Shown here: in pieces, positions 17,378-21,133 of the stretch | How the letters are laid out: every line of letters starts with the position of its first letter | Position numbering within the stretch: the stretch's first letter is position 1 | Assembly: GCF_018069865.1 (NCBI RefSeq) | Contig: NZ_JAGQDG010000005.1 | Location: forward strand, 124,001 to 188,000 | Reading direction: 5' to 3' | DNA length: 64,000 nucleotides | DNA from: Ideonella paludis | GTDB taxonomy: Bacteria > Pseudomonadota > Gammaproteobacteria > Burkholderiales > Burkholderiaceae_C | Notes under the pieces: model-generated | What the model was told of the DNA's origin: nothing | Seen by the model: only the letters and a program-made list of their open reading frames with translations | The model's database searches: none | Program-made: the position numbers and the translations under genes

Positions 17378-17674
17378 CTAGCGCGGGTTCGTGGGTGAGC
17401 GTAGACGCTCAATCCTTGTGGGCCGAACGAGTGCCACCCATTCGCCCTGTCGCCTGGCGGGGTCTGCGCGACAGGGGTCGAAGTGAATCAGGGCCTCGCA
17501 CTCGATGTCTTCGGGCTCATAAATCAACACACGCATACCTTCTGACAAACGCAAGCCCTGCGCAGCCAGGCTAGACAATGTGCCGTAGCCTGTAAGCGGA
17601 ATAACAGCGAGGCCAGTGGCATTGGTGCCGTGCTCGATGGCATTGAAGTCGGCATAGACCTGAGGCAGGCGCAT
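17378..17674 (-). CDS. Conserved hypothetical protein (98 aa)
   Basis: Starts MRLPQVYADFNAIEHG (ATG 17674) and contains LTGYGTLSSLAAQGLRL and VLIYEPEDIECEA. No signal peptide, no membrane segment; predicted mixed alpha/beta. I recognise the pattern as a small conserved protein of unknown function found in proteobacteria but know no role. The longer frame to 17737 has no coding support. Isolated, followed by a gene-free stretch. Confidence 0.65.
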   Translation of the reverse strand: MRLPQVYADFNAIEHGTNATGLAVIPLTGYGTLSSLAAQGLRLSEGMRVLIYEPEDIECEALIHFDPCRADPARRQGEWVALVRPTRIERLRSPTNPR

Positions 17675-17805
17675 GTGATTTCGGAGGGGCAGGCAGCGAC
17701 TGGGCGGTAGATGGCTGGATGCTGTGGCGCGAGTCAAGGAACGCGGAGTGAGTCAGACATTAGAAAAATTCGGTCGGGGCTACACACTCAGCCCCGGATC
17801 ATGCT

Positions 17806-18260: not shown

Positions 18261-19079
18261 CTACTTTGGCCAAGTGACCCGATACACGTTCAGGCCATCA
18301 CGCCAATACGATTTGCCTTGATGAACCCGGATGTTCAATTGAGGCGAATCGCCAATCGTTTCGCCATCTTTGATCACCGGGCCCTTCGACGCCAAGTACT
18401 GCGCCATTCCCAGAAGAAGTGGGAACACTTCTCGCCCAGATCGATTGACATCTTTGGCCTCAATCTCGTTCAGGCCGAGTTGGTCCATGCCAGAAGTCGA
18501 TAGCGAGAAGCCCTTTTCTGCGTCATTGGTAATTCGGAAATTGACCCAAAGCCAGATCGGGGGCTCTTCCCTGCTGATCTTTGCAGACTTTCGCAAGAAG
18601 GCGTCTCGAGACTGAAGGCTTGCCAGCCAGTAGCTGGCTATCGCATTGTCATTCATCACTGCGCTGACTGCGTCAGTGAGCAAGAGCCGGGTGTCTAGTG
18701 CGTCGAGGGATGACTGCATCACTCCCACCACCGCCTGCGCCCGATGCCCGGACGTTGCTTCGCAGGCTTGTCGCCAGTACCAAGCGTTGACGCAAAGGTC
18801 CTTGATGAGAGCCTCTGGGGCCGGCTTTGGGACTAGTCTCACCAGGACAATGGCTTCGCCGACACGTAATGCAATGGCATCAGCATCTTCATGCTCCACA
18901 CCCGTGATCTTGAGTCTGCCCGCAAGGCGACTGGCCAGCTCCTGCTGAAACTGCCTCGCGCTTGGAAGCTTCGGTTCTGCGAGAAGGACTATCGATACAG
19001 TGGACTTAGATTCGGTCTCCGAAGCCTGGGCTGACAGTACAAGTGACAGTAAAGCGAGGATGAAAAGTATCGAGCGCAT
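18261..19079 (-). CDS. Exported DUF4261-like protein
   Basis: 272 residues from ATG 19079. The first ~18 residues (MRSILFILALLSLVLSAQA) form a signal peptide, so the protein is probably periplasmic. The body starts STVSIVLLAEPKLPSARQF and resembles DUF4261 proteins, which are normally cytoplasmic, with conserved WYWRQAC and FRITNDAEKGFSLSTSGM stretches. Function unknown. The longer start at 19112 would disrupt the signal peptide. Confidence 0.65.
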   Translation of the reverse strand: MRSILFILALLSLVLSAQASETESKSTVSIVLLAEPKLPSARQFQQELASRLAGRLKITGVEHEDADAIALRVGEAIVLVRLVPKPAPEALIKDLCVNAWYWRQACEATSGHRAQAVVGVMQSSLDALDTRLLLTDAVSAVMNDNAIASYWLASLQSRDAFLRKSAKISREEPPIWLWVNFRITNDAEKGFSLSTSGMDQLGLNEIEAKDVNRSGREVFPLLLGMAQYLASKGPVIKDGETIGDSPQLNIRVHQGKSYWRDGLNVYRVTWPK

Positions 19080-19294
19080 AAGGTGCGGGCAGAGGTTTGG
19101 GGACAGGGCCACAACGCCGGGTACACATACTTTTATTGCCGGTCAGCCCATCGCGAAAGGCTCGGGGGCACTATAGCCCCATGCATTCAGCGTTTGAGCG
19201 CGTCTGTAACGCGGGCAGTAGGCGTCATGCCGCTGGATTAGAGGAGCCGAGGGCACTGCATTTGACTCCCGTAGCCGGTTGCAACGATGGACTC
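19080..19294. other. 5' part of gene-free stretch before the structured RNA
   Basis: No credible gene. It contains several short inverted repeats: GGGGC...GCCCC near 19164-19180, GCGTT...AACGC at about 19190-19213, and a CAG-GGC...GCC-CTG hairpin at about 19217-19235. These may be the upstream part of the RNA element at 19295-19530 or its promoter region. Confidence 0.4.
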
Positions 19295-19530
19295 GCGCTG
19301 GCGTAGGCCGTGGCCTGGGGCGATTTCTGAGGTGCGGCGGCGCGCAGGGCAAGGGCGTGGCGCGTGTATTCACGCGATTCAAGAACATATTCGCCGGAAG
19401 GGTTTGACCATAGCGAGCCGCAGGCGAGCGGAGGGAGTTTGACGGCGCACGCCCTTGCCCGAGCACCGACGGGAGTCGGCGTGAGCCGACCGCCTCAGCA
19501 TGAGCCCCGGGCCACGGCCTGTGCCAGCGC
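19295..19530 (+). ncRNA. Candidate large structured RNA
   Basis: The plus strand folds into a multibranched structure. A continuous 27-bp helix pairs 19295-19321 with 19504-19530, including three G-U pairs (19303/19522, 19304/19521, 19316/19509). Inside: an 8-bp helix 19327-19334/19491-19498 with one U-G pair; a hairpin at 19475-19490 (GTCGGC, loop GTGA of GNRA type, GCCGAC); a perfect 13-bp helix 19347-19359/19448-19460; a hairpin at 19361-19376 (CGCGTG, TATT, CACGCG); and a small hairpin at 19418-19431. All four wobble positions are G-U on the plus strand and would be C-A mismatches on the minus strand, which points to a plus-strand RNA. No known RNA family was recognised. It ends 145 bases before dbpA. 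Confidence 0.7.
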
Positions 19531-19675
19531 ATGCGCATGCGCCACCTGCTTAACGCACAACAGACCCTCCGAATAAAACCGCCCCGCCGAGTCACAGCAA
19601 AGGCCGAACCATCAGACTTCCAAGGCCACGGCCAATGATCCATCTGCCCAATCGCCAGCCCGGCGACAATCCAGC

Positions 19676-21133
19676 ATGAGCGTTTCATCTTCTCCCGTGT
19701 CCCAATCCTCCGCCACCCCCTCCGCGCTGGCGTTTTCCCACCTGCCGCTGAATGCGGCTGCCCAGGCCAACTTGGCGCAGCTGGGCTATGCACAGATGAC
19801 GCCGGTGCAGGCGGCCAGCTTGCCGGCGGCACTGAGCGGGCGCGACCTGATCGTGCAGGCCCCCACAGGCAGCGGCAAGACGGCAGCCTTTGGCTTGGCT
19901 TTGTTGCATCGGCTGGACCCCAGCCTGTGGCAGGTGCAGGCCATGGTGCTGTGCCCCACGCGTGAGCTCGCCGACCAGGTGACCGAAGAGCTGCGCCGCC
20001 TGGCGCGTGCGGCCGGCAACGTCAAGATTTTGAGCCTGTGCGGCGGCGCCACCATGCGCCCGCAGCGCGAGAGCCTGGCCCATGGCGCCCACATTGTGGT
20101 GGGCACGCCGGGGAGGCTGATGGACCACCTAGAGAAGGGCAGCTTGCAGCTCGGTGCCTTGAACACCCTGGTGTTCGACGAGGCCGACCGCATGCTGGAC
20201 ATGGGCTTTTACGACGACATGGTGACGGTGGTCAGCCAGTGCCCGCCGCAGCGCCAGACCTTGCTGTTCTCGGCCACCTACCCCGAAGGCATCGCCAAAT
20301 TGTCGGCGCGCTTTTTGCGCCAGCCGCAAAGCATCACCGTGGCCGCGCCGGCAGCGGCAGCCAAAGAGGCCACGGCCGGCGGGGCCATTCGCCAAGTGGC
20401 GTTTGAGGTGACCGAAACCGAGCGCCTGGACGCTGTCTCTAAGCTGCTGAACCACTATCGCCCGGCCAGCACCCTGGCCTTTTGCAACACCAAGCAGCAA
20501 TGCCGCGATTTGGTGGATGTGCTCACCGCCCAAGGCTTTGTGGCCCTGGCCCTGCATGGGGACTTGGAGCAGCGCGAGCGTGACCAGGTGTTGATCCGCT
20601 TTGCGGGCCGCACGGCCTCGGTGCTGGTGGCCACGGATGTGGCGGCGCGGGGCCTGGACATCGAGCAGTTGGAGGCGGTGATCAATGTCGAGGTCACGCC
20701 CGATCCCGAGGTGCATGTGCACCGCATTGGCCGCACCGGCCGGGCCGGGCACGATGGCTTGGCGCTCAGCCTCGTCAGCATGGACGAGATGGGCCGCATC
20801 GGCCGCATTGAACTGGCCCACGGCATGACCCTGCCCTGGCAGCCGCTGAGCGATTTGACGCCTGCGGCCGGCGGCCCGCTGCGCCCGGCCATGGCCATGC
20901 TGCAAATCTTGGGCGGCCGCAAAGAAAAAATCCGCCCCGGCGACGTGCTGGGCGCGCTGACTGGCGAGGCCGGCTTTGCGGGCAGCCAGATTGGCAAGAT
21001 CAAGGTGACAGAGTTCCACACCTATGTGGCGGTGGAGGCGGGCATTGCCCAAGAGGCGGTCAAGCGCCTGAGTGCCGGGCAGCTCAAAGGTCGCAAGGTC
21101 AAGCTGCGGCTGATGGACGATGTGGTGCGCTGA
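19676..21133 (+). CDS. dbpA: ATP-dependent RNA helicase DbpA
   Basis: 485-residue DEAD-box helicase that remodels the 23S rRNA peptidyl transferase region during large-subunit assembly. Helicase motifs in order: TPVQAASLPAAL (Q motif), APTGSGKTAAFG, PTRELADQV, GTPGRL, DEAD in VFDEADRMLD, SAT, then ATDVAARGLDIE and HRIGRTGRAGH. The C-terminal ~75 residues (KEKIRPGDVLGALTGEAGF...) are the DbpA RNA-binding domain that recognises hairpin 92. Start ATG 19676. The candidate structured RNA lies just upstream in the same orientation; whether it is part of the dbpA leader is unknown. Confidence 0.95.
   Translation: MSVSSSPVSQSSATPSALAFSHLPLNAAAQANLAQLGYAQMTPVQAASLPAALSGRDLIVQAPTGSGKTAAFGLALLHRLDPSLWQVQAMVLCPTRELADQVTEELRRLARAAGNVKILSLCGGATMRPQRESLAHGAHIVVGTPGRLMDHLEKGSLQLGALNTLVFDEADRMLDMGFYDDMVTVVSQCPPQRQTLLFSATYPEGIAKLSARFLRQPQSITVAAPAAAAKEATAGGAIRQVAFEVTETERLDAVSKLLNHYRPASTLAFCNTKQQCRDLVDVLTAQGFVALALHGDLEQRERDQVLIRFAGRTASVLVATDVAARGLDIEQLEAVINVEVTPDPEVHVHRIGRTGRAGHDGLALSLVSMDEMGRIGRIELAHGMTLPWQPLSDLTPAAGGPLRPAMAMLQILGGRKEKIRPGDVLGALTGEAGFAGSQIGKIKVTEFHTYVAVEAGIAQEAVKRLSAGQLKGRKVKLRLMDDVVR

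Follow-up and report, generated by a model that had tools for sequence, protein, structure and literature searches.

A structured repeat upstream of dbpA in Ideonella paludis belongs to a covarying, divergently paired family of candidate mobile cassette ends

Integron gene cassettes are delimited by attC sites, which are conserved in shape and border small hypothetical and toxin-antitoxin genes, and the ERIC, BOX and RUP repeats are scattered, non-autonomous and capable of folding as RNA; to our knowledge, these three repeats are smaller than the elements described here, do not join large units into divergent twins and have no cargo forms. Bacterial chromosomes also harbor REPIN (REP-BIME) elements, which are intergenic, repeated and non-autonomous and occur with RAYT transposases (PMC3116915), their REP modules being hairpins of 20-40 nt (PMC3733652). 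TIMEs carry terminal repeats of 38 bp, whose sequence is fixed, together with target duplications of 5-6 bp (PMC4133298), and the Betaproteobacterial repeat element (BRE), described in a study that also lists ERIC, BOX and RUP, is a GC-rich, often tandem and partly transcribed repeat of about 90 bp found in Comamonadaceae (PMC3110155). In this work we analyze a structured unit lying upstream of dbpA in a 64,000-nt stretch of Ideonella paludis contig NZ_JAGQDG010000005.1 (hereafter, the window), which belongs to a so far uncatalogued and widespread family of structured elements of about 240 bases.

The preliminary description of this DNA had proposed a 236-base multibranched fold at positions 19295-19530 of the plus strand, and MFE folding recovered the same helices at the same positions. 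With an MFE of -156.7 kcal/mol (z = -9.9), a value matched by none of 200 shuffles, the segment adopts one dominant structure in which 27 unbroken outer pairs are followed by a GAUUU/CAUGA internal loop and, inside it, by an 8-bp helix, then a short and irregular one, a perfect helix of 13 bp and three hairpins, one of them capped by a GUGA (GNRA) loop (Table 1). The minus strand also folds strongly (z = -9.2), as any inverted repeat folds on both strands, so the functional strand of this segment cannot be read from one sequence. A covariance model built from relatives (R1) scores the segment at 185.7 bits (E 4e-40), the window copy itself belonging to the R1 seed; the second-best match in the window reaches 15 bits, and a search with filters off returned no second unit above noise. 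Judging from alignments of the units, the element extends past the outer helix on its inner 5′ flank.

Table 1. Coordinates of the structured unit, its parts and neighboring features in the window
Feature	Position	Strand	Basis
Possible cargo ORF, 119 aa, no family	17378..17737	-	ORF list, domain search
Weak candidate scar of a lost type I left unit, GCCCTGTCGC...GCGCGACAGGG	17444..17477	.	Arm-tip likeness
Probable cargo gene, DUF6869, 120 aa	17806..18168	-	Pfam PF21746 E 3e-17; low GC
Probable cargo gene, DUF4261 protein, 283 aa	18261..19112	-	Pfam PF14080 E 5e-14; low GC
Inner 5′ flank, partly conserved among type II units	19270..19294	+	Unit alignments
Structured unit (candidate type II end), 236 nt, multibranched	19295..19530	+	Fold z = -9.9; model R1
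P1 5′ arm, 27 bp, covarying across family	19295..19321	+	Fold; fixed-frame pairing
Internal loop GAUUU, opposite CAUGA	19322..19326	+	Alignment A1 and arm comparison
P3 5′ arm, perfect 13 bp	19347..19359	+	Fold; 13/13 pairs with both-side changes in A1
Hairpin P5	19361..19376	+	Fold; A1 covariation
Long irregular hairpin P4, conserved UUUGA..AGCGAGCC..GAGCG..GAGUUU	19392..19447	+	Fold; A1
P3 3′ arm	19448..19460	+	Fold; A1 covariation
Hairpin P6 with GUGA loop	19475..19490	+	Fold; A1 covariation
Internal loop CAUGA	19499..19503	+	Alignment A1
P1 3′ arm	19504..19530	+	Fold; fixed-frame pairing
Outer 3′ flank, partly conserved among type II units	19531..19555	+	Unit alignments

Covariation, which the preliminary description had proposed to examine in the outer and 13-bp helices, was assessed in two ways, and both revealed compensatory changes. 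In an alignment of 27 units from six genomes (A1), 89.1% of the cells paired under the named structure are able to pair, compared with 73.5% in shuffles, and the fraction falls to 33-42% when the structure is slid by 1-3 columns; both-side changes occur at 38 of the 58 model pairs, and none of 500 shuffles reached the observed values. The GAUUU/CAUGA loop is kept in Ideonella units and in the matching unit type of genome G021. A fixed-frame test, in which 26 outer-helix positions of 39 units from three genomes were paired without any folding, yielded 907 Watson-Crick, 48 G-T, 6 A-C and 53 other pairs, with many positions carrying at least two Watson-Crick pair types. The outer helix of another genus (GCAAAGGCGCG../..CGCGCCTTTGC, or CGGCGGGCGGTATTCGGCGG) pairs equally well and has almost no letters in common with that of the window copy. 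We regard the existence of a structured family as practically certain.

The non-Watson-Crick pairs of the window copy had been taken earlier as a sign that the plus strand is the functional one. This is true of that copy and extends to the family, where G-U exceeds A-C by 48:6 in the fixed frame (39 units) and by 52:5 over all helices of A1 (27 units), in the same direction in both unit types; a further alignment, of 70 matches fitted to the model, gives 102:19 and leans to G-U for that reason. Because the cells of an alignment do not represent independent events, p-values computed from these counts come out too small. The excess supports folding of each unit on its plus strand. It also bears on the alternative that the units are plain DNA palindromes (REPIN- or MITE-like repeats, cruciforms or bidirectional terminators) shaped by quasi-palindrome correction, with no functional folded RNA. 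Many copies, intergenic placement and pairing as inverted repeats would fit such palindromes, and RAYT-type Y1 transposases are encoded in most genomes of the bacterial family; however, correction of this kind is strand-symmetric, and is disfavored because G-U exceeds A-C, while loop nucleotides and junctions are conserved as well. The Y1 gene is present in G001, G005 and G006, where no units were detected, absent from unit-bearing G008, G036 and draft G004, and in the window's own genome (G000) never shares a contig with a unit, the RAYT-like genes lying on C15 and C21 and the 15 units on C11 and C16-C20. We consider the palindrome explanation very unlikely, and rejected the RAYT/Y1 transposase as a partner because its occurrence does not track that of the units. 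This transposase (about 230-300 aa; G000:C15:581518-581844) is mostly single-copy and found in most genomes of the family, with units or without.

The preliminary description had suggested that similar sequence occurs elsewhere in Burkholderiales, and homologues were indeed found in the same genome, genus and family. The covariance model locates 15 full or partial units in the window's own genome, the window copy included, which are 69-89% alike by BLAST. Outer-helix sequences in the genus fall into two types, I (GCCCTGGCGCGGGGTRGGCC..) and II (GCGCTGGCGCAGGCCRTGGCC..), and the unit in the window belongs to the second of them. At the threshold adopted for the family (E <= 0.001), R1 matches 178 of 301 genomes and 91 of 141 genera. 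When 369 genomes sampled across the class were searched, 27 gave matches (E <= 1e-4), mostly from other families, with shorter (about 140-150 nt) and weaker (35-66 bits) units that retain CGAGnAnCGCAG, TGTTTGAnCG..GAGTTT and CGAGnAnCGCAGGG, frequently adopt a divergent twin layout and are commonly bordered by CTTTTCTTTG/CAAAGAAAAG hairpins; the homology of such distant matches is less certain. Shorter divergent twins of this kind from other families of the class (L203 5436-5767, L204 2031-2350, L205 32-361 and L208-L211), whose outer sides carry hairpins of the CTTTTCTTTG..GCC..CAAAGAAAAG type, possibly point to a much wider superfamily. BLAST and exact-pattern searches of plasmid, phage and viral contigs returned no copy of the unit, and spread may thus proceed within genomes or vertically. 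Several draft contigs (G231:C5, G288:C20 and G248:C89) end at a unit or within a few hundred bases of one, and counts of copies from draft assemblies are therefore probably too low.

In line with the earlier statement that the fold belongs to no named family, gathering-score searches with Rfam 15 gave no match in the window or in 11 loci, nor did any match up to E = 1 overlap the units of six further loci, and a permissive cmscan of 18900-19800 gave none up to E = 5. A weak Rfam match to SorX (L212) and matches to microRNAs (L064) fall below the cut-offs and outside the units, and were dismissed. The open literature, as far as our partial coverage of it extends, contains no description of the family, and an earlier one may exist in subscription journals.

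The arrangement of the units was assessed on eight (near-)complete genomes from eight genera, comprising 83 units at E <= 1e-4 after exclusion of one weak match. Neighboring units no more than 4 kb apart form 28 pairs, and every one of these is divergent (a minus unit followed by a plus unit), with gaps of 86-92 nt in 19 of them and of 104-181 nt in the others; 27 of the 83 units have no partner within that distance. Within an element, the 5′ side of each unit faces inward and its 3′ side the flanking DNA. In most genera these pairs form a compact twin of about 520 bp in total, with about 90 nt between the units, and the outer helices differ within a twin, often combining one GCAAAGGCG type with one CGGCAGGCGGT type. 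Contrary to this rule, convergent pairs about 120 nt apart occur in the same-genus genomes G014 and G002; convergent pairs were noted at L081 4869-5325, L084 5220-5671 and L087 2842-3286 (G014, G011, G002). The short spacers of twins (e.g. L158 5057-5151) frequently contain both a palindrome close to GGCGCGCCAAC and, ahead of the outer helix, a conserved leader (GCCAAC..GTTCAGC). Tandem AAGCCCC repeats lie immediately outside a type II unit at L009 7260-7400. A search of 33 elements for target-site duplications at a fixed distance gave no signal.

Most twins are devoid of cargo. In Ideonella, by contrast, the halves lie 1-3.3 kb apart; five elements of the window's own genome span gaps of 1.0-3.2 kb, and each of them pairs one unit of type I with one of type II. 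Wide pairs are also found in G021 (L064, 930 bp) and G149 (L193, 890 bp, where the second unit scores only 34 bits). The ORFs between paired units are small and foreign-looking and encode DUF2971, GFA, DUF7674, DUF2750 and nucleotidyltransferase proteins, as well as a RelE-type toxin with an HTH antitoxin; a HicB-like ORF, recognized by eye and matching no NCBIfam model, adjoins a lone unit at L185. The GC content of the cargo is below that of its flanks at 12 of 12 loci, the window included (Wilcoxon p = 0.0005). Cargo turns over between genomes of the genus. At one locus (L011/L058), G000 and G004 have corresponding flanks and end units (88-92% identity) but unrelated cargo, the G004 locus (L058) holding an additional toxin-antitoxin cassette together with an additional type I unit; at the hutH locus (L015/L060), the adjoining type II unit is 92% alike and the cargo differs. 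Plain homologous recombination between units could account for this turnover. Between gabD and a GGDEF gene, G000 has 1.9 kb of element, and three species (G001, G006 and G013) have about 100 bp. The element is dispersed, non-autonomous and absent at an orthologous site, as is expected of MITEs and TIMEs. G004 retains at this site only a remnant of the 3′ arm, with its junction at GGCTCA; this has the appearance of a secondary deletion, and G004 was not accepted as a never-filled site.

The draft assembly of G004 (Ideonella sp. MAG2) contains adapter runs at L056, L062 and L227, and these loci were left out of the cargo comparisons. The adapter CTGTCTCTTATACACATCT and N occupy L056 9058-13709, L062 374-450 and L227 2480-2501; spurious ORFs such as VSYTHLDVYKRQ arise from the adapter, which may also mask units.

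These exchanges of cargo also bear on a second alternative, in which the units are attC-like recombination sites, folded as single strands, between which cassettes are captured. Consistent with this are the cassette-like nature of the cargo, the extra cassette accompanied by an extra unit at L058, the recurrence of the same end units around different cargo (L011/L058; hutH L015/L060) and the preservation of shape under variable helix sequence. The sites, however, form inverted and not direct repeats, measure about 240 nt and are multibranched, inspection by eye located no attC core motif flanking the units, and cargo is missing from most twins, which makes this explanation quite unlikely.

In the window, the unit sits between dbpA and a low-GC island (17.4-19.25 kb; GC 0.53-0.60, vs 0.65-0.70 around it) that contains the DUF6869 and DUF4261 genes, the latter being also found between glpK and dbpA in G004. 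By analogy with the paired elements, this copy probably represents the right end of a cargo element (cargo about 17.4-19.1 kb) whose left end has been lost; the link to cargo is one of analogy because the left unit is missing. The only trace in its place, at 17444-17477, matches the tip of a type I arm at 10/10 positions, that 10-mer occurring twice in the window; the likeness may be due to chance alone, and we did not find this 34-nt lookalike convincing as a left unit. The preliminary description had suggested that the unit could be a leader acting on dbpA, and it does share the strand of dbpA, whose start follows about 145 nt downstream. A cis-acting leader is nonetheless extremely improbable, for the repeat stands beside unrelated genes in 15 places and its position is not kept in six same-genus genomes (G001, G003, G005, G006, G013 and G015), in which homology at dbpA starts only within the coding sequence and no unit was matched. 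G004 was discarded as an empty-site witness at dbpA because its assembly contains adapter and N there. Since the window unit is a copy of a paired, cargo-flanking family, the end of a mobile element is likelier than a dbpA switch.

On balance, we favor reading the unit as one structured end, acting as a folded single strand, of a mobile cassette element that is non-autonomous and moved in trans. Two such ends in divergent orientation would bound one repeated chromosomal element, and the plus strand of each would fold, either as RNA or as single-stranded DNA. An enzyme encoded elsewhere would recognize the ends by their shape and conserved loop letters, independently of helix sequence, and move the element, after which homologous recombination between units would swap cargo locally. 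Of this scheme, the covarying structure, its strand, the divergent pairing and the cargo with its turnover are observed, and past movement and recognition of the folded strand by the enzyme are inferred. RNA is slightly more plausible than single-stranded DNA as the folded form, because the two ends need opposite strands. The ORFs surveyed around about 100 loci include no recurrent transposase, recombinase or reverse transcriptase, whether within the elements or next to them, and the neighbor-gene clusters that do recur were discounted as housekeeping genes or spurious ORFs read through units.

A twin could otherwise consist of two divergent genes for structured RNAs, for instance guide RNAs that extend into the flanks as TnpB reRNAs do, with a protein partner encoded elsewhere and a repeat distribution derived from an old mobile origin. 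The covariation is of the grade seen in RNAs, with invariant loop letters on both sides, each unit is strand-asymmetric on its own strand, and the 3′ ends in twins always point toward the flanking DNA. Yet a simple scan of 18900-19800 found no sigma-70-like promoter, the outer helices of a twin are separated by merely about 45-60 nt, and the HEARO/OMEGA guide RNA raised as a possibility in the preliminary description did not hold up: RF02033 gave no match up to E = 5, no nuclease gene, whether of the IscB, IsrB or TnpB type, recurs at about 100 loci, and the Pfam-scanned neighbors in the window are not nucleases. We consider divergent RNA genes of this kind unlikely; the units may still be analogues of HEARO/OMEGA RNAs.

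More tentatively, and going beyond the mobile cassette end that we favor, the elements might constitute a shape-recognized gene-cassette system, with two divergent ends of about 240 nt, freely variable helices and interchangeable cargo of toxin-antitoxin and hypothetical genes, moved in trans throughout much of the bacterial family and in other families. If so, small accessory genes would share a common vehicle whose ends are conserved as shapes, and finding the enzyme would reveal how a shape-specific element moves. A covarying structure present in about 60% of the sampled genomes of a bacterial family has no Rfam entry, and R1, A1 and the divergent spacing rule provide a concrete model for annotating many spurious "hypothetical proteins".

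Compared with described systems, the units resemble REPINs (PMC3116915), which are likewise short, intergenic and non-autonomous, in pairing palindromic modules as inverted copies across a short spacer, but at about 195-240 nt they are larger than the 20-40 nt GTAG-/CGTC-tagged hairpins flanking a RAYT gene that define REPs, and they are multibranched, evolve by compensatory change and enclose cargo genes in some lineages. Like TIMEs and mobile insertion cassettes, the elements are non-autonomous, lack a transposase and exist in miniature and cargo forms; unlike TIMEs, they have helices of freely varying sequence and showed no target duplication, and the two ends differ in sequence, whereas MITEs and TIMEs combine transposon terminal inverted repeats with a target duplication. 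With BRE (PMC3110155) they share the character of a GC-rich chromosomal repeat with copies in Comamonadaceae; BRE and the Pseudomonas repeat families (PMC2718517) were set apart by size or arrangement as described. HEARO (RF02033) and OMEGA RNAs are likewise large structured RNA candidates linked to mobile elements, but the units match no such covariance model, have no nuclease gene and occur two per element. From integron attC sites, which are imperfect hairpins of 57-141 nt with RYYYAAC...GTTRRRY cores, the units differ in size (190-240 nt), multibranched form, inverted pairing and core motifs, their ends having been compared by eye. The element thus works like REPINs, TIMEs and cassette ends, yet departs from each of them in its defining features.
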